From Lacrimispora xylanisolvens (GTDB lineage Bacteria > Bacillota > Clostridia > Lachnospirales > Lachnospiraceae), in contig CP070896.1 of assembly GCA_017084465.1 (NCBI GenBank), forward strand, positions 3,771,501 to 3,835,500: 64,000 nt of DNA, in the 5' to 3' direction. This document shows positions 40,861 through 52,857 of this stretch, in pieces. Below the pieces are notes generated by a model, which had not been told where the DNA came from, did not search any database, and saw nothing but the letters and a program-made list of their open reading frames with translations. A program made the position numbers and the translations under genes. Positions within the stretch are counted from its first letter, which is position 1, and each line of letters opens with the position of its first letter.

Positions 40861-41016
40861 AGTCATTTCCTCCTTATATACGGCTGTTAGTTATATCTAT
40901 TCATAGCCGGCAGATTCTATGAATTACCAGGGCGGCAGGAGGGGGAGTGAGACAGGAACCTGTTTTTTATCAAATGCATATGTTAGGATATGGAAACTTT
41001 TTCGGAGGTTAAAGAG

Positions 41017-41331
41017 ATGTCGGGACGCTTTTGCTTAAATGACTTAAAAAGAGGTCAGAAAGGAATCATTTCCAGACTGACCGTTTGTGATGATATGAGA
41101 CGCAGATTACAGGATATGGGACTGATTGAGGGCACTGTAGTGGAGTGTGTGGGTAAAAGTCCTCTTGGGGATCCAACTGCATTTTTAATCAGAGGTGCTG
41201 TAATTGCCCTGCGAAATGAAGATTCCGTCAGGGTTTTGATACAGAATCATGACCAGGAGTCCTTTGAACCCAGTTATGGAGAGGGGATTGCGGCTGCCTG
41301 TGTCACTGCGGAGGAAGACATATGGGACTAA
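41017..41331 (+). CDS. feoA: Ferrous iron transport protein A
   Basis: 104 residues from ATG 41017, eight bases after GGAGG. SH3-like FeoA domain: [43 protein letters not shown] and the end [14 protein letters not shown]. It is an accessory of FeoB. Its stop overlaps the feoB start by ten bases (ATGGGACTAA), so FeoB translation is coupled. Confidence 0.92.
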
Positions 41332-41483
41332 GCAGAGAATCCATGGGAATCAAATCGGTAGACTGTGGACTGGAAATTAAAAAAAAGGAGCCGGAAGATC
41401 TGGTAATAGCGCTGGCCGGAAACCCCAATGTGGGGAAAAGTACAGTATTTAATCAGCTGACCGGGATGAACCAGCACACCGGA
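41322..41483 (+). CDS. feoB: feoB segment 1 of 3 (interrupted by element 1)
   Basis: First 54 codons of the ferrous iron transporter FeoB. The G1 (P-loop) GNPNVGKST is present, and the segment ends [11 protein letters not shown]. The next conserved residues, NWPGKTVANAQG, are found 2.4 kb away at 43925. In the unexcised state translation runs into the element and stops after three more codons. Joining at CACCGGA restores the frame exactly. Confidence 0.93.
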
Positions 41484-41497
41484 TCATGCATTTAGGG
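41465..41497 (+). other. attL-like border of element 1
   Basis: feoB sequence up to CACCGGA, then TCATGCATTTAG (41484-41495). That arm mirrors CTAACTGCATCA at the right border with two mismatches. Confidence 0.75.
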
Positions 41498-41506
41498 GCA
41501 AAATTG

Positions 41507-42906
41507 TTATAAAAAAATAATGGTATATTCCCTGTGACCGCCAGAGCGCTTACTCAGGCGTATTTCTTTAATGACTGACCGCCAGAACAGGCGCTTTTGC
41601 TGGTTATCAAGGCGCTGATACATGCTTTCAAAATCTTTATTAATCATGTCTATTAAAGCTTCCGGATTTTCAGCGGGCTGTTTTATATCAGAAAGTTTAT
41701 TCAGCTGAATCTCTAATTCATTCCTGTCAGTTTTATATTCTTCCAGTGTAATTGCTTCATTTAAATATAAATCCTTTAACCGGTCTATTTTTCTTTTGAA
41801 GCTGATTCTTTTTCTGACGGTTATCAACTGTTTTTTTGCTTTTTGCTTCAAAGTCTGCTATGTAAGATCCAAATTGTTCTTTTACATTTTTCAGAAGATA
41901 TTCCTCGATGCGGACTTCCCTGATTGCTCCTCCGTTGTCACACTTCTTAAAAGACCGGTGCCGTTTGCATTCGTAGGCTGGATATTTATATCGGAGTACT
42001 GTTTTGTCTTTTCGCTTTGATACGGTATTGATATGACAGCCGCCCATTTTTTGACCGCATTCGGCGCACACCAAAAGGCCAGTAAAAATATAGGGGTATT
42101 TCTGGCTGGATTTTATATTGCTGTTATGATCCAGGATGCGCTGGACCTGATGGAAGGTTTCATCGGAAATCAGACGGGGACAGTAAGTATCATTGCTTCT
42201 GTAACGTCCGGTGATTTTTTCATTGCGAAGGATTGACTGTTTAAAGTTTTGCACAGACATGATGATTCCGTGTGTGTCTTTCAAGTACTGGACAGCCTGA
42301 TTCATAGACTGATGTTTTAAGAAATAAAAAATCGTGTCCTGAATGGCAGGGGCTTCCTCTGACAGTACCAGATGCTTATCCTCGATCCGGTATCCGTGTG
42401 GGACTTTGCCTGTTATAACTTCCCCGTGGGTGACCTTTGTGCGAAAGACATCAGCCACACGAAGACCGCCATTTTGTGCCTCAAGTTCTGCCCAGGTCAT
42501 GGATTGAGCCACAAATGCCCGGCCGTAGGGAGTGGAAGTGTCAAAGAAGGGCTGGTCGATGGCAGTCCAGGCTGCATGATGTTTTTTCCAGAACTGCCTG
42601 GGTATTGAGATAGTGGCGCAGGCTGCGAAACCACCGGTCCAGCTTGGTAAATATGATCAGATCCACAAGCCCTTCCTTTACATGATTCATTAAACGGGTA
42701 AAGTCGTCCCGGTCAATTTTCTGCCCGGAAACGCCGTCATCCAGATAAATATCCTGCAGAACCATATTTTTATGTTCTTCGATGTATTTAATGCCCCGCT
42801 CTTTTTGATCTCTTATGGAATCGCCCCGTTCCGCCTGTTCATCGGAAGACACACGGATGTAGACGGCTACACGCAGCAGTTTCTCTGATTCCTCAGCACG
42901 TTTCAT
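41507..42906 (-). CDS. Large serine recombinase of element 1 (two frameshifts)
   Basis: About 465 residues. Resolvase domain (RVAVYIRVSSDEQ with catalytic Ser, then DDGVSGQKIDRDDFTRLM and IIFTKLDRWFRS), recombinase domain (VPHGYRIEDKHLV...), zinc ribbon (CAECGQKMGGC...CKRHRSFKKC) and C-terminal coiled coil (YLNEAITLEEYKTDRNELEIQLNKL). This is the integrase/excisionase type (phage TP901-1 or SpoIVCA class). Breaks near 42560 and 41810 fall in short runs and join in frame. Stop lies 23 bp from the left att border. Confidence 0.92.
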
Positions 42907-43034
42907 TCTATCATCTCCTGGTATAATCTACTCCCTCCCGCAGAAAATTAAAACCCGTTTCCTCTGATTGCTTTAAATAAGGTAAGAAGGACAATCAGCG
43001 GAACATACAATTTACCAGAAAGGAGGTGGTAGTA

Positions 43035-43184
43035 GTGGCAGATACTATCACCACAGTAAATCAGGCAGATCCGGTCAGGGCATTTGAAGCGCTGGCGAGA
43101 ATTATAGGGGAAAAAGAGGGAGTGGAAATCACTCTGAAAAATCTTCGGAAAAAAGAAGAAAAAGAAACTGGATCAACGCAATGA
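43035..43184 (+). CDS. 49-residue protein beside recombinase 1, unknown
   Basis: GTG start 43035 after AAAGGAGG. Begins VADTITTVNQADPVRAFEAL and ends in a Lys/Glu-rich helix. Divergent from the recombinase, followed by a terminator. Candidate accessory factor, for example for excision direction, but that is a guess. The strong RBS is the best evidence that it is translated. Confidence 0.55.
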   Translation: MADTITTVNQADPVRAFEALARIIGEKEGVEITLKNLRKKEEKETGSTQ

Positions 43185-43195
43185 TTCTATATAAA

Positions 43196-43227
43196 TAGGC
43201 AGATCGGATTGACAGATCTGCCTTTTG
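43196..43227 (+). terminator. Terminator after the small ORF
   Basis: GGCAGATC pairs with GATCTGCC, followed by TTTTG. Confidence 0.75.
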
Positions 43228-43252
43228 AAATGCTATGTAGGAATCTTACTAA

Positions 43253-43612
43253 CTAATTAGAAGCTTTCTTTGTTTCTGTTACTGCTGACTTGTTGTCTTT
43301 TGCAGCTGCTGGGGATTCTTCCTTTAATTTGTTGTCGCCTGTCTTTGACTCTGCAACAGTTGTTTCATCTTTCTTGGTCTCGTCCTTCTTTGTTTCTTCT
43401 TTCTTAGTTTCGTCTTTTTTAGTTTCTGCTGAGGAACTGCTTTCTTTTACTTCTTTTTTAGTTTCTGCTGGTTTTGTAGTAGCTTCGGTGGTTACTTCTG
43501 CTTTTGTAGCGGCAGTTGTTTCTGTACCTTTGGTATTTCCACATGCGGAGATAGCTGCCATTGTTAATACTGCAACACCTGTCAGTACCAGTTTCTTTGT
43601 TGTTAACCTCAT
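43253..43612 (-). CDS. Ala/Lys/Glu-rich lipoprotein of element 1
   Basis: 119 residues. Signal peptide with lipobox (TMAAISAC), then a low-complexity, highly charged tail with repeats of DETKKEETKK and many Ala/Thr. No enzymatic motif. RBS AAGGAGG on the minus strand. Such tails are wall-spanning tethers; function unknown. It is the only surface cargo of element 1. Confidence 0.7.
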   Translation of the reverse strand: MRLTTKKLVLTGVAVLTMAAISACGNTKGTETTAATKAEVTTEATTKPAETKKEVKESSSSAETKKDETKKEETKKDETKKDETTVAESKTGDNKLKEESPAAAKDNKSAVTETKKASN

Positions 43613-43917
43613 AATTATATCCTCCTTGAGACTGCATAGGTATTATGGTTGTATGGCTTCCGGTTGTCCTATGTCCCTGAAGTCAGAACTCAGTGTAGCA
43701 CCGAAATTGAAGAAAATCAATGGCAAATTTGTTATTTATTTCTTAAAAAAAATTAAGTTGTATTAAAAAAATAGAAATCAGTTAAAATTAAGAATAAATT
43801 CACAAATATTTCACAGTTTGAACAAACTTCCATCACAAACCCGTTTTCCCGTCTTCGGATTTTAATCTGACAGTGTTAAAATGGCTTTTTTTCATTTTTC
43901 GGCTAACTGCATCAACC
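43613..43917. other. Non-coding right end of element 1
   Basis: About 305 AT-rich bases before the right border. I see only the lipoprotein promoter region and no convincing gene. Confidence 0.5.
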
Positions 43918-43940
43918 CACCGGAAACTGGCCCGGCAAAA
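43900..43940 (+). other. attR-like border of element 1
   Basis: CTAACTGCATCA followed by ACC and CACCGGA, then feoB resumes with AACTGGCCCGGC. Joined to the left end, the arms CTAACTGCATCA and TCATGCATTTAG face each other around ten bases with AC at the centre. Confidence 0.75.
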
Positions 43941-45069
43941 CGGTTGCCAATGCCCAGGGCTGGTGCCGGGATGGGGATCAGGGGTATGTTATGGTGGATA
44001 TTCCAGGCTGCTATTCCCTTATGGCACACTCTACAGAAGAGGAGGTGGCACGGGATTTCATCTGCTTTGAAAATCCCGATGCAGTAGTAACTGTTTGTGA
44101 TGCCACCTGTCTGGAGAGGAATTTAAACCTGGTACTTCAGATCATGGAGGCAGCGGACCGTGTGGTAGTCTGTGTAAACCTGATGGATGAGGCAAAGAAG
44201 AAACGGATTGTTTTAAATCTGGATCTTTTGGAGGAACGGCTCCACGCTCCTGTAGCAGGAACAACAGCAAGAAGCAAAAAGGGGCTGAACCAGATTTACC
44301 AGGGGTTAAAGCGTTGCATCAAAGAAAAGGAGACTAATTATGAGAGACCTGTGCTCATATATTATCCCCAATATATTGAAGAGGCAATAAAAAGGCTGGC
44401 TCCTGCTGTGGAGGAAGTATCTGACGGAGCAGTTAAGGTACGCTGGCTTTGTGCAAGGCTTTTGGATGCCAATGAAAACCTGATGGGAGCGGTAAACAGA
44501 TATTTAAAGCCTCTGGCAGATTCGGAGACGGTAAATGCCTGTCTTACTGAAATCTGGAGCGAATGGAAAGAACAGGGGATCAGCCAGGAACAGGTTAGCG
44601 ATGATATGGCTGCTGTATTTATCCGAAAAGCAGAAGAGTTATGTAAAGGAGTCGTGGTATTTGAGAATAAAACCTATAACGGGAAAGACCGGAAACTGGA
44701 CCGTCTCTTTACCAGTAAAGCAACTGGATTTCCTATTATGTTTCTTGTTCTTCTGGGGATTTTCTGGCTGACTATTACAGGCGCTAATTATCCATCCCAG
44801 CTATTAAGTAATCTGTTATTTGGTATTGAAGACCGTTTGTCCATTGCCGCAGATGCAGCGGGGGTTCCGGCAGTTCTGTCCGGGCTTTTCATTCACGGTG
44901 TATACCGGGTTCTGGCATGGGTAATATCGGTTATGCTGCCGCCTATGGCCATTTTCTTTCCTCTCTTTACCCTTTTGGAAGATTTTGGTTATCTTCCCAG
45001 AGTAGCCTTTAATTTAGACCGGTGTTTCAAACGATGTTCTGCCTGCGGAAAGCAGGCGCTGACCATGTG
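43925..45069 (+). CDS. feoB: feoB segment 2 of 3
   Basis: 381 codons plus two bases, no internal frameshift. Starts NWPGKTVANAQGW (G2 region), G3 is DIPGCYSL, G4 is NLMDEAKKK, followed by the helical domain and the first membrane helices (FPIMFLVLLGIFWLTITGAN, then the Gate-like domain). It ends in CFKRCSACGKQALTM, the conserved membrane motif, where element 2 cuts. In the present state it lacks a start codon with RBS and ends at TGA 45068-45070. Confidence 0.93.
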
Positions 45070-45105
45070 ACAGAAGAAATCTATGCTTTTTTTCACTGTT
45101 AAATC
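45050..45105 (+). other. attL-like border of element 2
   Basis: feoB sequence up to CATGTG (45064-45069), then ACAGAAGAAATCTATGCTTT. The AATCTATGCTTTTTT stretch reappears inverted at the right border. Confidence 0.8.
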
Positions 45106-45240
45106 CTGGATTACTATCTTGACACTTTTTATTCTGAATGTTATAGTTACAAATATAAACTGTAATTAAAAATAGTACAGAAACACGAGGTTAACTGCCA
45201 CAAACAGGCGGTAAAAGTATCACTTACAGGAGGTAATCAT

Positions 45241-46573
45241 TTGGGATTTTCGATTGACATGAGTGTTCCGGTATTAACCGTATTTTTACAGGGTATTGTA
45301 AGCTTTTTTTCACCCTGCGTGCTGCCTTTAATTCCTCTCTATATTGGATATCTGTCAGGGGGAACGGGAGTAACAGGTGAGGATGGAAGAATCTATTATA
45401 AGCGGAGCAAGGTTATGTTACATACCATTTGTTTCGTGATTGGAATCAGTTTCACTTTCTTTCTTCTGGGAATTGGTGTCTCAGCACTTGGGAGCTTCTT
45501 TAGAACCAATCAGCTTCTGTTTGCCAGACTGGGCGGTATTCTTGTCATTATGTTTGGATTATATCAGCTGGGATTCCTGGGAAATTCTTCTCTCCTTGGA
45601 AAGGAGCGCAGGCTGTCCGTTTCCTTTGACAAACTAGCCATGTCTCCGCTCACGGCCCTTCTCATGGGATTTACCTTCAGTTTTGCCTGGACACCCTGTG
45701 TAGGACCTGCACTGGCCAGTGTACTGATCATGGCGGCATCTGCTACCACCAAAACACTTGGATTTATGTTGATTGGAGTCTACACACTTGGATTTATTCT
45801 GCCGTTTCTGGCAGTGGGATTTTTCACCACATCGGTTCTTGAGTTTTTTAAGACACATAGAAATATCGCTAAAAATGCGGTTAAAGTTGGCGGAGCGCTG
45901 ATGGTACTCATGGGATTGCTGATGTTTACAGGAAAAATGAATTCTGTGACCGGATATCTGTCTTCTGTAAAGTCTCCATTTACCAGGGAATCAACAAAAC
46001 CTGCAAAAGAGACAGAACCACCAACCAAGGAAACGGTACCTGAAACGGTAAAAGAATCTGCAACAGAGGCAGTTACGGCTGAATCCCAATCTCAGGCAGA
46101 GGAATCCCAGAGCGAAGAAGACCAGATTCTTCCAGCCATTGATTTTACTTTAACAGATCAGTTTGGCAAGACACATTCTTTATCGGATTATAAAGGAAAA
46201 ACCATCTTTTTAAATTTCTGGGCGACCTGGTGTCCGCCCTGCAGGGCAGAAATGCCGGATATACAGAAAATATATGAGACCTACAGCACAGAAGGCGATG
46301 ACGGTCTGATTGTCCTTGGGAGTAGCAGCCCCCGGTTACGGGGATGAAAAGGATGAGGAGGGTATTAAAAAATTCTTAAAAGATAATGGATACACCTATC
46401 CGGTTCTCATGGATACGGAAGCAGAATTATTTGATGCGTATGGAATATACTCCTATCCAACCACCTTTATGATTGACCGGGATGGCAATGTATTTGGATA
46501 TGCAAGCGGACAGTTATCAGAGGATACTATGAAGAGTATTATTGATCAGACAAGGAAAGGAGTAAGAAACTAA
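45241..46573 (+). CDS. CcdA-TlpA fusion: membrane electron carrier plus thioredoxin-like domain (frameshifted)
   Basis: About 444 residues. N-terminal CcdA domain with six helices and the paired cysteines in FFSPCVLPLIP and WTPCVGPAL. A Thr/Glu/Ser-rich linker of about 65 residues follows, then a TlpA/ResA-like thioredoxin domain with NFWATWCPPCRAEMP. It passes reducing equivalents from cytoplasmic thioredoxin to outside disulfides in a single chain. TTG start at 45241 after AGGAGG. One break near 46320 (IVLGVAAPGYGDEKDEE). It shares a transcript with the VanW gene four bases downstream. Confidence 0.88.
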
Positions 46574-46577
46574 TAAT

Positions 46578-48089
46578 ATGGATAAAAACAGGGCCAGAAG
46601 AAAACGTGAAAGAAGAAATCGGAGAATCATTTATGGATCATTGCTAATAGCTGCCCTGTCAACAGTTGGTATTTTATATAGCTTTGGAAACAGTAAAAAA
46701 ACCAAAGATTCTGACAGCAGCCAGGTGATCACAGAAACCAAAGAAAAAGAAACAGTCCCGGAGAAAGCGCTGGTATCAGCCAGGATTGGAGATACAAATC
46801 TCTCGGGATTGACTGCTAAAGAGGCAAAGGATACTATAGAAGAGCGTTATCAGTGGGGAATGACGGTTACAGACGGAACAGATGCAGTTGTAATCGATGA
46901 TATAGTAAGCAGTCAGCTGGAGAAGATTATGAAGCAGCTGAGTGAAACTCCGGCAGATCAGCCACAGGATTATCAGCTGGATTATGATTCCATGAAGGAA
47001 GCATTTAAAAAGCAGGCAGAAGCCCTTGCTAAGAGGTGGAACAAAGACGGAGTTAATTCCCAGGTAGAATCATTTGACCAGAAAACCGGGGCATACAGTT
47101 ATACAAAAGAGCTAAATGGCAGAGTACTGGACCAGGAGAAGTTAGTAAATCAGCTTCTGGATGCTGCTAAGAAAGAGAATTTTCAGGCAGAGATCCCGGC
47201 AGAGTTTACCCTTAAGGCACCTGTAAGGACCCAGGCTCAGGCAAAGGAACAGTATAAGGTAATCGGAACCTTTACAACCAAAACCACCACCAATAAAAAC
47301 CGAAATCAGAATATCAGCCTTGCAGTGAATGCAATCAATGGCGTGGTCTTAAAGCCTGGTGAGGAATTTTCCTTTAATAATACCACAGGAAACCGTACCA
47401 GTGAAAAGGGATATCAGCCTGCAGGCGCATACAGAAATGGCGTTTTAATTGAAGAGCCGGGTGGCGGCGTATGTCAGGTTTCCACCACCCTGTACCATGC
47501 GATTATAGAAAGCGGGTTTAAAACCACGGAACGTAATTCTCACAGCTTTGCCCCATCCTACGTGGAAAAGGGACAGGATGCCATGGTCAGCTTTGACGGC
47601 TATGCCGGACCGGATTTAAAATTTATCAATACCGGAAGTTCTTCTGTCGTATTGAGAGCATCCTTAGACGGAACTACTTTAAAACTATCTATCGTAGGAA
47701 TCCCGGTTCTTGAAGATGGTGTAAAGGTTACCATTCGTTCAGAAAAGGTGAAGGATTCCGATCCTCTTCCGGTTACCTATGAGGAAAACACAGCGCTGCC
47801 TTTTGGAACAGAAAAGGTAGTGGATAAAGGAACCCTCGGCGGATATTTTAAGAGCTACCGCGTAATAAAGAAGGGCGACACTGTAATAAAGGAAGAACCG
47901 CTTCATAACAGCAGTTATAAAGGAAAACCGCAGATAATTCAGAGAAATACCACCTTAAAGCATGAAGAGACTGTTCAGGAAACTCATGTACAGCCGGAAA
48001 GCACCACAGCAGCTCCGGCTGAAGAACCAGGTGAGACCCATGAGGCTGTAAATGTGGGACCTGGTGTAACAGGAGCAGAGAATCAGTAA
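46578..48089 (+). CDS. VanW-family protein with G5 domain
   Basis: 503 residues. Basic N-terminus and one membrane anchor (IIYGSLLIAALSTVGILY), a repeat-like PG-binding (YoaR) region, then the VanW domain (FNNTTGNRTSEKGYQPAGAY, GGGVCQVSTTLYHAIIESG), and a C-terminal G5-like domain (VVDKGTLGGYFKSYRVIKKG). Surface protein tied to the wall; VanW function is not known in detail. RBS GGAGTAAG is overlapping the end of the previous gene. Confidence 0.85.
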   Translation: MDKNRARRKRERRNRRIIYGSLLIAALSTVGILYSFGNSKKTKDSDSSQVITETKEKETVPEKALVSARIGDTNLSGLTAKEAKDTIEERYQWGMTVTDGTDAVVIDDIVSSQLEKIMKQLSETPADQPQDYQLDYDSMKEAFKKQAEALAKRWNKDGVNSQVESFDQKTGAYSYTKELNGRVLDQEKLVNQLLDAAKKENFQAEIPAEFTLKAPVRTQAQAKEQYKVIGTFTTKTTTNKNRNQNISLAVNAINGVVLKPGEEFSFNNTTGNRTSEKGYQPAGAYRNGVLIEEPGGGVCQVSTTLYHAIIESGFKTTERNSHSFAPSYVEKGQDAMVSFDGYAGPDLKFINTGSSSVVLRASLDGTTLKLSIVGIPVLEDGVKVTIRSEKVKDSDPLPVTYEENTALPFGTEKVVDKGTLGGYFKSYRVIKKGDTVIKEEPLHNSSYKGKPQIIQRNTTLKHEETVQETHVQPESTTAAPAEEPGETHEAVNVGPGVTGAENQ

Positions 48090-48096
48090 GATAAAA

Positions 48097-48147
48097 AGAA
48101 ACAGGATAGGAAAAACCATTTCTTGGTTTCCCTGTCCTGTTTTTTTG
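48097..48147. terminator. Terminator between vanW-like and chemoreceptor genes
   Basis: AAACAGGATAGG and CCTGTCCTGTTT with inner AAACCA/TGGTTT, then seven T. Confidence 0.85.
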
Positions 48148-48170
48148 GCGTTAATGGCAATGCATTCTGA

Positions 48171-49912
48171 CTATATTTTAAACTCTAAAATCATGTCATG
48201 TAAGTCTTTGGCAAGTTCGGATAAGAGATCGCTTGAGGCAGCAATCTCTTCCAGCCCGCCGGCTTCCTCTTCCATAGATATATTCACATCTCCGGCGGCC
48301 TGAGAATTTTGCTTTGCAATGTGGGTAAGGTTTTCAAGTAGAGCCAGTATTGTATTTTTCATATCATACATTTCTTTTCCGGTATCATTTAATTGCACTG
48401 AGGTATTTTTAGACTTTTCCATGGCCTGATTAATTGCCTGATAAGTGGCTCTGCTGTTTTCAACCCGATGGGTTTGTTCCGTGGTAATGTTTTTAATTCG
48501 TTCCATGATATCCACAGCATTAGCAGCGTTTATTTGCAAATCTGAAACGATTTCTTCTATATTTTTTGAAGAATCGGCGGATAAGGCAGCCAGTTTCTTT
48601 ATCTCACTGGCAACAACTGAAAAGCCTTTGCCAGCCTGACCTGCACGGGCGGCTTCTACAGATGCATTGAGAGCCAGAAGTCTGGTCTGAAGGGCAATGG
48701 AGGAGATCAGGCTGCTTGCCGCGCTGATCTGATTTGAGCTCTCATTGGTTTTGGTCACTAAATCGTAAATTTTCTCGTTGGCATTGTTACTCTCCGCTGT
48801 TATTTCAGAAAGGTTATCCATTTCTTTAAGACCGTCATTAATTGACTCTGTAACAACTGTTATGGCACTGTTTATATGATTTGCTAATGAAAGGTTATTA
48901 TCAATAATATTTCCTAATTGGGTTGTTTTTAAAGCTCCTTCCATGGTGCTTTCCATCTGGTCTTCTGCTCTGGCAGCTATCTCATGAATGGTGTGAGATA
49001 CCTCTTCGGCTGCTCTGGCTGAATGAGTGGAAGCGGCAGTCAGCTGATTAGAGGTAAGAGCAACCTGACTGGAGGAAGAGTTTATCTTACCAATCAACGC
49101 TTGAAAGTTATCTCTGATATTTTCCAATGAATTGGCCAGAATTCCAAATTCATCCGTTTTCCGTAATTCTTTTTTGAAATACTGTTTTGTAAATTGAACT
49201 CAGCCAGTTCTTTTGCAAAGTCAGAGGATCGTTTGATGGAACGGGATATTTTATCGGAAAAAAGAAACCCTGCAAAGGTAATAATTCCTGTAAATATCGC
49301 AAGAATCAGTAAGCAGACTTTTTTGAAATGCTCCATTTCATTATAAATAGATTCTGCATCAAAGTCCGCACCCATGATTCCCACAACCGTACCCTGACTA
49401 TCCTTAATGGGATAATAGGAGCTTATGTAGATTCCCCAGCCTTCTACAAAGTTAAGTTTCTGGTCTGTGTAGGGAATTCCGCTCCAGGACTGTTCGTAGC
49501 AGAGCGCAGACTCTTCCGTATCTCCGATATGAGAAAGCTCTCCGTCTGGTGAACCGTCAACCACATACATAAATTTTCCATCAGAGGTTTTTCTAAGAGT
49601 AAAGATATGCCTTGCTCCGGTGATCTCTCTGATTTTTATTAAGTTGTCCCGTTCTTTTTTATAATAATCGGTGTTTTCATCCTCTGGAGAGGTCAGTGTT
49701 TTGAATTTTTCAACATCAATGTACTTACTGGACTGTGATACTGTCTGGTAAGCCGTCTCGGAGGCCTTACTGGTAACGGCTTTATAGCTTTGCTGGTATA
49801 AGATGTATGCAAGAGTCATTGTAATAGAAAGTACCATAATCAGAAAAAATGCAATGATTTTTATCCTGATATTTTTTCGATAAGATAATGCTGATGGAAA
49901 AAAACGTCTCAT
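48171..49912 (-). CDS. Methyl-accepting chemotaxis protein (frameshifted)
   Basis: About 580 residues. N-terminal membrane helix ([22 protein letters not shown]), an extracellular Cache-like sensor (about residues 45-200, [20 protein letters not shown]), second helix ([20 protein letters not shown]), HAMP-like linker, and the MA signalling domain with the hairpin tip [22 protein letters not shown]. Start taken at ATG 49912 ([10 protein letters not shown]) after AGGGGAG. The frame breaks near 49150 in a T-rich run ([24 protein letters not shown]). It transmits to CheA/CheW encoded elsewhere. Confidence 0.9.
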
Positions 49913-50235
49913 AATAAGCTCCCCTAATCTTTTTTTCAGCCATAGATAGTATAGAAACAATGGCTGTTTCCTCTCTTGGAATATAGCCTGATTATAGCTT
50001 TTAATATTTAAGAGTGCAAGTTGCTTTTTGTTTAAAATAGTAAAATTTGCACAAAAATATTATTTTGGTTTAGAGGGGTTTAGAACAATGTGCATAAAAG
50101 TTTTGGAAAAATCAACCTTTTAAAGAAGCTGAAATAAACACCTCTAAATGCAAACGGCAGTTTTACTACGAGTCAGCTTCACTTATGTATATGGTACAAA
50201 CCTTTATGAATAAGATTTTTCAGGAGGTGGGCATC
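49913..50235. other. Non-coding stretch in element 2
   Basis: About 320 AT-rich bases between the divergent chemoreceptor and the small ORF. I see no gene; it must hold both promoters. Confidence 0.5.
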
Positions 50236-50388
50236 ATGGATTTGTCCAAAGAGAGCGCCTATGAAAAAAAATGGGGAGAAAAGCAGACCGCGGTTTTGAT
50301 TGAGCGTTGTTATCTAGGAGAGGCATCCGTAAAGGAATTGGTTCTCAGTCTGTTAAAGAAAAGGCTGGAGGCAGGAGGTCGTGATTAG
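50236..50388 (+). CDS. 50-residue protein preceding recombinase 2, unknown
   Basis: ATG 50236 after CAGGAGGTGGG. Protein MDLSKESAYEKKWGEKQTAV then a helical LIERCYLGEASVKELVLSLL and a basic end. It overlaps the recombinase start (GTG 50381) by eight bases, so both are co-translated. Could be a partner of the recombinase. An in-frame upstream start at 50185 is possible but weaker. Confidence 0.6.
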   Translation: MDLSKESAYEKKWGEKQTAVLIERCYLGEASVKELVLSLLKKRLEAGGRD

Positions 50389-51999
50389 AGAGAGAGAGAA
50401 AGAGGGGCGGCAGTATAAGGCGGCTTTGTATATGCGGCTCTCCAAAGACGATGGGACTGGAGAGAGCGCAAGCATTAATACTCAGCGGAGCATGCTGCGT
50501 TCCTATGCCGACCGAAATGGTTTTTTTATATACGGAGAATACGCAGATGATGGCTACAGCGGGACTACGTATGACCGACCGGCATGGAAACGCCTGCTTG
50601 CAGATATAGAAGCGGAGAGGGTAAATCTTGTAATCACCAGAGACCTCTCCAGGCTTGGAAGGGATTACATACTTACAGGTCAGTACACAGAGATTTATTT
50701 TCCAGCCAAAGGGGTTCGTTATATTGCAGTCAATGACGGCTATGATTCAAACAATCGGGGAAATGATCTCGCGCCTTTTCAGAATATCGTTAATGAAATG
50801 TATGCCAGAGATACATCAAAAGATTCGAAGCGCATTAAGAACCAAGATGGAAGACGGGGCATATATCGGAAATTATGCTCCTTACGGATATCAAAAGGAT
50901 CCTGGGGATAAAAAACCATCTATTAATCGATCCCCTGACCGCGCCTGTGGTGCGGGATATCTTTAAGCGGGCTTCCAGGGGAGAATCTCCATTAAAGATT
51001 GCAAAGCTGCTGAATGAGAGGTGTATTAAAACTCCGGCCAGTTATCGTCGTTTTATACGGCAGGAGGTGGGCCTGGAGACTGATGAAGGAGAAAAAGGCT
51101 GGACCTCCAGCATCATCTGCAAAATTCTATCCAACCGGGTTTATACAGGGGATATGGTGCAGGGCAAAACCTCCAAGCTGTCATTTAAAAGTAAGATGAC
51201 CTTACGGATACCGAAAGAGGAATGGATCGTGGTGGAAAACAAGCATAACGCCATTATATCCAGAGATTTGTTTGAGCAGGCAGGAAGGCGGAGTGTCCCA
51301 CGGAAAAGATCAAAATCAGCTCAATTCTATAATGCATTTTCCGGACTGGTGTACTGCGGGGACTGCAAAAGAGTGATGACCACAACCGGGGGCAGCCATA
51401 CGGAGGACAGAAAACTGGTATGCAGCGGATACAAGCAGTATGGAAGAACCGCATGCACCAACCACTACATGAAATATGATCTGCTCTGCCAGATTGTATC
51501 CCAGGAGCTTGAGACTTTCATTACCCTGTCAGAAGAAGAGAAAAAAAAGGTTGCGGGTCAGTTAGAGTACTATGGAAGAAACAGAGGCAATTCAGAAGAA
51601 AAACGGGCGGCTGCATCTTTAAAAAAGAGGGAGAGGCAGATTGAGCGAATTATTGGAAAGCTTTACGAAGATCGAGTCAATAAAGTGGTGGAAGAGGAGC
51701 GTTTCTGTAAGCTGCTCACTTCTTATGAACAGGAGTTAAAGGAGATTGGGGCGGAAGCAAGAGCCATAAAAAAAATCACAGCATCTGTACGGAAAAGCGC
51801 AGATGGACCAGAGGAGGCTGTGGACCGTTTATTAAACGAGTTAAAGGGAAAAAGAATTCCTGCTTCCGATTTGCTGCACCAGTTTATTGATCGGATTGAA
51901 ATCTTTCAGTCAAGGAAAGATCCGGATCAGAAAGAAAATGAGATTATAACCGTCAGGATATTTTACCGGACAGAGTCACCAGACAGTAAAAAAGCATAG
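50381..51999 (+). CDS. Large serine recombinase of element 2 (two frameshifts)
   Basis: About 539 residues. Resolvase domain (AALYMRLSKDDGTGESASIN with catalytic Ser, YADDGYSGTTYDRPAWKRLL, ITRDLSRLGRDYI), recombinase domain (GNYAPYGYQKDPGDKNHLLID, RRFIRQEVGLETDEGEKGW), zinc ribbon (CGDCKRVMTTTGGSHT...CSGYKQYGRTACTNHY) and coiled-coil tail. Sequence clearly differs from recombinase 1. Breaks near 50825 and 50910 are in A runs. GTG start coupled to the small upstream ORF. It ends 17 bp from the right border, mirroring element 1. Confidence 0.93.
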
Positions 52000-52016
52000 A
52001 TTGCCCCTGTCATGTG
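51983..52016 (+). other. attR-like border of element 2
   Basis: AAAAAAGCATAGATT, eight bases, then CTGTCATGTG; this is the inverted counterpart of the left border. feoB resumes at 52017. Confidence 0.8.
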
Positions 52017-52857
52017 CATGGGATTTGGCTGTAATGCAGCGGGAATTGTAGGCTGCCGGATTATTGATTCTCCAAGAGAGCGGCTCATTGCCATGATCAC
52101 CAACAACTTTGTTCCCTGCAACGGGCGTTTTCCAACCATGATTGCGATTATTACCATGTTTTTTATCGGAGGAGCGACAGGATCATTTTCCACTATTTTA
52201 TCTGCAGGAATTCTGTCAGGTATTATTCTTCTTGGAATTTTCATGACCCTTGTAATATCCAAAATTCTCTCTGTAACCATATTAAAGGGGATCCCCTCTT
52301 CCTTTACCTTAGAGCTGCCCCCTTACCGCAGACCCCAGATTGGAAAGGTCATTGTCCGTTCCATATTTGACCGGACCCTCTTTGTTCTGGGAAGAGCGGC
52401 TGCAGTGGCTGCACCCGCAGGTCTGTTAATCTGGCTGATGGCGAATATCACAGTGGGGGATATGACCTTATTAACCCGCTGCTCCGGTTTTTTAGATCCC
52501 TTTGCCAGAGTCATCGGCCTTGACGGCGTGATCCTCCTGGCATTCATCCTTGGCTTTCCTGCCAATGAGATCGTTGTTCCCATTATGATTATGGCTTATC
52601 TTTCTGAAGGCAGCATACGGGAAATCAATGATTTATCCATATTAAGGGATCTGTTGATTTCCCATGGCTGGACCTGGGTGACTGCCGTCAGCACCCTGCT
52701 TTTCTCCCTCATGCACTGGCCCTGTTCCACCACCTGCCTGACCATAAGGAAGGAGACCGGGAGCATAAAATGGACCCTTTTGTCCTGGCTTGTGCCTACG
52801 GTAACCGGAGTTATTGTCTGCTTTTTGTTTACGACTGCAGCAAGGGCGTTCCTGTAA
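52017..52857 (+). CDS. feoB: feoB segment 3 of 3
   Basis: C-terminal 279 codons, no frameshift. Begins CMGFGCNAAGIVGCRIIDSPRERLIA, the conserved FeoB Gate motif with the NFVPCNGRFPTM segment, and runs through the remaining helices (ILLAFILGFPANEIVVPIMI, SLMHWPCSTTCLTI) to a normal C-terminus. With segments 1 and 2 it makes about 715 residues. Alone it has no start signal; an in-frame ATG at 52012 is created at the border but has no RBS. Confidence 0.93.

Follow-up and report, generated by a model that had tools for sequence, protein, structure and literature searches.

The feoB locus and its two elements

The window, i.e. the whole stretch of DNA analysed here, comprises 64,000 nt of Lacrimispora xylanisolvens (CP070896.1, assembly GCA_017084465.1, positions 3,771,501-3,835,500, forward strand) and contains a feoB gene, coding for a metal transporter, that is cut twice. 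The codon breaks are at HTG/NWPGKTV and QALTM/CMGFGCNA, and the omission of 41484-43924 and 45070-52016 (elements A and B, respectively) resulted in a single open frame of 715 aa. The arrangement of the locus, in window coordinates, is as follows.

41017-41331, + strand: feoA; the listed open frame runs from 40990, relatives conserve the start at 41017
41322-41483, + strand: feoB piece 1, codons 1-54; FeoB_N match at 1.9e-9, in-frame join to piece 2
41477-41483, + strand: left copy of attachment (att) core A, CACCGGA; direct repeat, borders also in relatives
41484-43924, + strand: element A; its omission restores the frame, borders mapped in relatives
43918-43924, + strand: right copy of att core A, CACCGGA; direct repeat
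43925-45069, + strand: feoB piece 2; TIGR00437 match under the whole-protein cut-off, as expected for a piece; ratio of non-synonymous to synonymous substitutions (dN/dS) 0.04-0.13
45064-45069, + strand: left copy of att core B, CATGTG; direct repeat, borders also in relatives
45070-52016, + strand: element B; its omission restores the frame, borders mapped in relatives
52011-52016, + strand: right copy of att core B, CATGTG; direct repeat, borders also in relatives
52017-52857, + strand: feoB piece 3; TIGR00437 match, with a further cut near codon 475 in some relatives

Chance is excluded as the source of the breaks by the exact frame restoration at both sites together with the identical breaks in other species. 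Both inserts lie within coding sequence, are flanked by short direct repeats and leave an exact reading frame when omitted, as expected of an element like skin of sigK. A DtxR-type regulator gene (Fe_dep_repress match) adjoins feoA.

The two elements carry the following genes and sites.

41507-42906, - strand: rec1, large serine recombinase (Pfam); three frames as assembled
43253-43612, - strand: small lipoprotein-like gene, the lipoprotein nature judged by eye
45068-45087, + strand: left attP half-site of element B; 20 bp conserved, then background; inverted repeat with 51993-52012
45241-46573, + strand: ccdA-tlpA fusion, cargo adjoining the left border (DsbD_TM and Redoxin); frameshifted as assembled
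46578-48089, + strand: VanW/G5-domain cargo gene, far under the cut-offs of the NCBIfam VanW models
48171-49960, - strand: methyl-accepting chemotaxis gene, cargo (MCPsignal); two frames as assembled
50381-51999, + strand: rec2, large serine recombinase (Pfam); two frames as assembled
51993-52012, + strand: right attP half-site of element B; inverted repeat with 45068-45087

Resolvase, Recombinase and zinc-ribbon domains were detected with Pfam among the pieces of rec1 and of rec2. The 3' end of rec1 (41507) is 23 bp inside the border of element A and the end of rec2 (51999) is separated from core B by 11 bases. The initial annotation, made from the letters of the sequence alone, had described a feoB in three segments, two elements, a restorable gene of about 715 codons and recombinases whose 3' ends abut the borders, and all of this was confirmed. 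Of the 11 genomes with element A, 9 had a long intact rec1 frame, and an intact rec2 frame was present in 19 relatives. Each element encodes a site-specific recombinase, recognised with Pfam and PHROG and intact in relatives. In alignments of rec1, rec2 and ccdA-tlpA with two relatives (G003 and G016), the window differed by length changes of 1-2 bases, mostly in short homopolymer runs. The window genome is a single contig, yet 89.5% complete, and a second feoB locus in it is also spread over two frames. The frameshifts of the window, which the initial annotation had not mentioned, are probably sequencing errors of this genome rather than signs of decay.

Phage structural genes, which would mark a prophage, were found in neither element of the window: the PHROG matches were only of the integrase/invertase type or of unknown function, and no structural Pfam family was matched. 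The lipoprotein-like gene of element A had no Pfam match over the cut-off. By eye, a consensus sigma-A-looking promoter of ccdA-tlpA was seen just within the border of element B (45070-45240), and GTA-N5-TAC, a possible shared operator, before both rec1 and rec2.

Inverted-repeat arms around a central TG are the expected form of a serine-integrase attP. In the 19 genomes whose two B borders matched the search patterns, conservation per 10 bp of the arms of core B was 0.93 and 0.97 on the left and 0.83 and 0.81 on the right, and 0.46-0.62 beyond about 20 bp. The paired arms formed an inverted repeat around the central TG with 15-19 matches of 20 in these genomes; shuffled arms averaged 5.3 matches and reached at most 12.

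Retention, selection and co-divergence in the genus

The genus set consisted of 25 Lacrimispora genomes (G000-G024), including L. defluvii PI-S10-B5A (G019) and L. celerecrescens 152B (G008). Break B, at codon 435, was found inside one contig in 19 of them (G000-G004, G006-G010, G012, G014, G015, G017, G018, G020, G021, G023, G024), and all 19 had ccdA-tlpA at the left border and a relative of rec2 in the gap. Both borders were present on two contigs in G016, one border of element B was found in G022, and G019 had the last feoB piece at a contig start. G005 contained an element-only contig, and neither feoB piece was matched in G011, which is 67% complete. In G013 (locus L148), feoAB and the recombinase were lost from the locus while ccdA-tlpA, the VanW-like gene and the downstream genes were kept.

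Break A was determined with both borders in 11 genomes (G000, G001, G003, G004, G010, G016, G017, G018, G020, G021, G024) and was partly seen in G007, G019 and G022. It was absent in eight (G002, G006, G008, G009, G012, G014, G015, G023), where codons 1-435 are continuous. No uncut copy of the interrupted feoB was found among the 25 genomes, a comparison with relatives that the initial annotation had also proposed. A 711-aa frame in G001, which holds one of the two matches in that genome, was considered as such a copy and rejected, as it runs into an N stretch.

A third element (C) near codon 475 had both borders in seven genomes (G001, G004, G009, G010, G017, G018, G024) and was also found in G007, on two contigs, and in G022, with one border, which gives nine genomes altogether. 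Its cargo included GH42, sugar transport and two-component system genes in G018, conjugation-type ATPases in G010, and GH13 and GH11 enzymes in G017. Over 544 columns, the recombinase of this element shared 41% identity with the skin recombinase of Lacrimispora, and it had a below-cut-off match to XisF. Varied cargo of sugar-use and conjugation-type genes was observed in the third-element loci L037, L081, L082, L051 and L093. A search of viral_contigs with the attP patterns of the third element and of element B gave no match.

A fourth element, intein or intron, suggested by a stretch near codon 190 in G007 and by a longer piece 2 in G017 and G024, was rejected, as these are ordinary in-frame Glu-rich stretches. 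The Glu-rich FeoB expansions of G007 (L050) and G017 (L051) lie between the GTPase and membrane parts.

With the middle feoB piece as the query, matches were obtained in 42 of 99 genomes. The Lacrimispora matches to the interrupted feoB were mostly in frames of 384-595 aa, and most full-length feoB matches of other genera were in frames of about 700 aa. More distant intact FeoB proteins of 722-731 aa were encoded in G010, G013 and G021. Among 80 named loci, feoB was uncut from before codon 150 to the end in 67, broken at codons 428-435 in 10, and cut by contig ends elsewhere in 3. Two of the 10 breaks at codons 428-435 are at contig starts and two are from Lacrimispora, and the N part was in the same locus in only three (L172, L177, L232).

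The C part of feoB was detected in 55 of 299 family genomes taken one per genus. In 12 of those genomes (13 stretches examined), four loci (L128-L131) had the two pieces separated by a stretch containing a recombinase match, which in L129 and L131 was at only 22-29% identity, and in L134 a recombinase match was directly before the feoB C part. In another genus, codons 53-623 of L127 (G108) were uncut with one stop. In other genera, feoB cut at or near codon 435 was seen in L128, L129, L130, L131, L134, L172, L177 and L232, with varied serine-recombinase matches nearby. By these comparisons codon 435 is a recurrent target, since breaks there with recombinase matches occur in other genera; retention in nearly every genome was found only in Lacrimispora.

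The dN/dS values were determined pairwise by the Nei-Gojobori method and pooled by clade from named lists; G007, G022, G024 and G065 were left out of the pools, and entries were limited to the best tblastn pieces with a query coverage of 60%. In feoB, piece 1 had values of 0.045-0.059 and piece 2 of 0.041-0.126, codons 437-474 gave a ratio near 0 and codons 478-715 one of 0.046-0.079, the pairs not being independent and dS being saturated in the widest comparisons. No in-frame stops were present in the 20, 21, 21 and 22 entries of these stretches, respectively, with G065, of another family, as one entry in each of the first two. The uncut neighbours gave 0.03-0.05 (hemerythrin, where measurable) and 0.02-0.18 (feoA). 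Among the element genes, the values were 0.07-0.13 for ccdA-tlpA, 0.07-0.08 and 0.18-0.24 for the N and C parts of rec2, and 0.21-0.27 for the lipoprotein gene. The values of rec1, 0.04-0.14, are limited to close clades, as other recombinases were picked up outside them. Stops in feoA (4 of 19 entries) and the lipoprotein gene (2 of 13) were all at the very end; the rec1 N part had a stop in 1 of 19 entries, from a genome without element A.

The distances of the feoB pieces correlated with those of ccdA (0.88, 0.89), the C part of rec2 (0.81), the N part of rec2 (0.49) and rec1 (0.90-0.97), and in each case none of 2000 shuffles was as high. The eight-genome clade of the window recurred in the feoB, rec2 and ccdA-tlpA trees, as did a seven-genome clade (G002, G006, G008, G009, G012, G014, G015) that was weaker in the rec2 tree (86/99). 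In the latter, G001 and G007 were placed otherwise, G007 on a very long branch, taken as a bad row and kept in. Low dN/dS, the lack of stops and the co-divergence of gene and elements indicate that the feoB pieces stayed under strong purifying selection while cut. Selection for function of an interrupted gene, as expected of a skin-like element, was thus found.

Putative sporulation-type promoters, candidate directionality factors and contig ends

The features upstream of feoA and of the small element genes are listed below.

40958-40985, + strand: sigma-K-type feoA promoter, AC-N17-CATATGTTA (motif and alignment)
42987-43011, + strand: SpoIIID-like box with a sigma-E-type -10, CATACAAT, before the small gene of element A (composite pattern)
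43026-43184, + strand: small conserved gene, candidate recombination directionality factor (RDF) of element A; dN/dS 0.04-0.13, start uncertain
50187-50227, + strand: promoter-like block conserved ahead of the small element B gene and rec2 (by eye, in the 19 alignment rows reaching it)
50236-50388, + strand: small conserved gene, candidate RDF of element B; homologue in 19 genomes, also where away from rec2

The -10 form used for sigma-K was CATAnnnTA, and the SpoIIID box consensus was that of B. subtilis. Upstream of feoA, AC-N17-CATATGTTA was conserved in 18 of the 18 genus members examined; G017, for which the available stretch began within feoA, is outside this count. The motif at a spacing of 15-19 was detected in six of nine other-genus loci. 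At a spacing of 15-17 it was found in 25 of the 67 named loci with usable upstream DNA. Over 200 shuffles the average count was 0.9 and the highest 4, while reversing the sequence gave a count of 1 and the reverse complement one of 3. As background, the motif occurred in 6 of 416 upstream stretches, each 160 bp long, and one of these six belongs to a feoA. The two other feoB loci of the window genome had no sigma-K motif in the upstream DNA examined. According to the available text of PMC3789822, sigma-K promoters have AC at -35 and a CATA-type -10, and CD1518-CD1517 (feoA-feoB) of C. difficile belongs to the sigma-K regulon, with a value of 0.05 in the sigK mutant and a sigma-K promoter.

The composite SpoIIID/sigma-E pattern, which was devised after the site had been seen, gave 11 matches in 1.17 million strand-bases, six of them being the site itself in six genomes. 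The block of element B was present before both the small gene and rec2 in other species where these lie apart. Neither of the candidate RDF genes had a Pfam or PHROG match, and a sigma-E promoter was not recognised by eye upstream of rec1. SpoIIID is present in the window genome. In the part of PMC5025042 available, the skin of C. difficile is described with a 72-aa RDF under sigma-E and SpoIIID. The small proteins of elements A and B may likewise be RDFs.

In the L. defluvii assembly, the contig with feoA and piece 1 stops at the last base of core A, and the contig with the last piece begins at the first base of core B. The element B contig extends 15 bases beyond core B on each side, with a 21-base overlap, and the middle feoB piece was not found in this assembly. 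One 5,036-bp contig of G005 corresponds to element B from core to core, neither of the feoB pieces searched being found in that genome, and the element B contig of G022 has core B at its start. As a repeat of 6-7 bases should not split an assembly, these ends suggest that excised and integrated DNA were present together in the sequenced DNA.

At least 22 of the 25 genus genomes have two separate sub-cut-off matches to the sigma-K model, mostly on one contig, and the sigK contigs of L. defluvii end exactly at the skin core AATGA. In L249 (G000) and L250 (G004), sigK was observed to be split by a skin-type element of about 8 kb with a recombinase, and L250 contained hydrogenase small- and large-subunit genes by family search.

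Proposed programmed excision, its rivals and related systems

The explanation with the best support, which we consider quite probable, is that the elements are excised in a programmed, skin-like way in the mother cell during sporulation. The interrupted feoB would then be one of the late, sigma-K-dependent sporulation genes of the mother cell; growing cells would carry it in pieces, and the excision of two independent skin-like elements would rebuild it. Each element supplies its own large serine recombinase beside a border and a small RDF candidate. Mother-cell timing is suggested by the sigma-K-type feoA promoter and, in element A, by the SpoIIID/sigma-E-like site preceding the small gene, and the rebuilt FeoB would be used for iron uptake during spore formation. 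The initial annotation had set reconstitution of this kind, as a conjecture, beside parasitic integration. Reconstitution is now favoured by the genus-wide retention, purifying selection, co-divergence, conserved att half-sites, the sigma-K-type promoter and the contig ends at the cores. Of iron limitation, stationary phase and sporulation as possible conditions of excision, the evidence suggests the sporulating mother cell.

Several observations weigh against this explanation. Its support consists of assemblies, sequence comparisons and published data on C. difficile. The window genome has two further feoB loci besides the interrupted one, and its rec1 and rec2 are frameshifted as assembled. 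The sigma-K motif was missing from three of the nine other-genus loci and, in its strict form, from 42 of the 67 named loci, and CD1517 was likened to the Lacrimispora gene as a feoB, not as an established orthologue. The SpoIIID/sigma-E-like pattern was detected in only 6 of the 11 element A genomes and in neither of two sigK regions, and the promoter-like block of element B is a weak sigma-E match. The loss of the interrupted feoB in G013 demonstrates that decay occurs, as does a feoB fragment from about codon 430 with two stops in another genus (L136, G241). In G005 and G022, contigs end at the cores only for part of those expected: in G022 neither the piece 1 contig nor that of the last piece has its end at a core, and the sigK contigs of G005 do not stop at the skin core. 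The exact joined junction of B and its circular junction were each found in 0 of the 25 assemblies, which is expected of consensus assemblies and is still a negative.

Excision could also proceed without developmental control, either reversibly and at a low rate in growing cells, with selection on the cells having the joined gene, or in answer to iron shortage. The latter would agree with the DtxR-type gene next to feoA, and the contig ends at the att cores, while suggesting excised DNA, are silent on the cell type. However, the sigma-K-type feoA promoter speaks against such excision, a like contig-end signature occurs at the sigK skin in the same L. defluvii assembly, and the long retention of elements with no known replication system would fit excision in a terminal cell better. 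This alternative is unlikely, though it is the most serious of the rivals. Parasitic integration into a dispensable, decaying gene would be in line with the other feoB loci of the window genome, the recurrent targeting of codon 435 elsewhere, the gene loss in G013 and the stops in the G241 fragment. It is improbable in view of the lack of stops and the dN/dS of at most 0.126 in the pieces compared, the co-divergence of the elements with the gene, and the conservation of the att half-sites against the background.

The pieces might instead work as separate polypeptides of a split FeoB, for which an ATG is available at the core next to the start of piece 3. No ribosome-binding site was seen by eye before that piece, piece 1 ends within the GTPase domain, and the third element leaves one piece of about 41 codons between two elements; such a split protein is very improbable. 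Assembly joins or another artefact, suggested by the short length errors in the window and the N stretches at the G001 locus, have a negligible probability, as the same breaks and core bases recur across numerous separate assemblies, several of which consist of a single contig. The initial annotation had named assembly joins as a possible origin of the insertions, and for the breaks this was refuted.

If programmed excision in the mother cell is correct, the known cases of gene reconstitution in sporulation would come to include a metal transporter and a gene that holds several separate elements. Lacrimispora, in which sigK and feoB would both be split mother-cell genes and in which element A and the third element are naturally present or absent, would, together with the codon hit again in other genera, make the persistence of interruptions directly testable. 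Attention is also drawn to iron import in the mother cell at a late stage of sporulation, a step that has been little explored. We lean, with some reserve, towards a wider proposal in which iron uptake during Lacrimispora sporulation is gated by DNA rearrangement: the sigma-K feoB would have to shed as many as three elements, each coded separately, before it could work, and feoB and sigK, being needed only in the terminal mother cell, would offer safe docking sites for cargo useful to growing cells (thiol-redox, sugar-use and hydrogenase functions).

The literature searched contained no account of an interrupted feoB, most subscription papers being outside it. Such a gene is not mentioned in the available text of PMC3789822, PMC2530871, PMC5595907 and PMC10083194, and in the last two that text has no word beginning with feo.

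The feoB elements resemble skin in sigK (B. subtilis, C. difficile) in that a serine recombinase lies inside the element; Lacrimispora has its own split sigK, whose recombinase is related to that of the third feoB element. Unlike sigK, feoB codes for a metal transporter and not a sigma factor, it has two elements and in some relatives a third, and no phage structural genes were recognised in A and B. The skin of C. difficile is excised in the mother cell, as stated in the accessible part of PMC5025042. The gin element in gerE of B. cereus, as far as it is described in the available text of PMC5595907, is likewise a non-phage gene-intervening element with a serine recombinase and an accessory factor, rearranged in sporulation. 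In contrast to the several feoB elements with one recombinase recognised in each, gin is one element with three recombinase genes, inserted in a single small regulator gene. SPbeta in spsM and yin in yabG also interrupt sporulation genes, and spsM is rebuilt by excision in sporulation; unlike the feoB elements, both are described in the accessible sources as single insertions of a prophage or prophage-like nature.

The nifD, fdxN and hupL elements of cyanobacterial heterocysts are several excision elements under one developmental programme in a terminal cell. To our knowledge, feoB is not a target of these elements. The lineage and the cell type are different, and the likeness to the feoB elements includes the below-cut-off match of the third-element recombinase to XisF.

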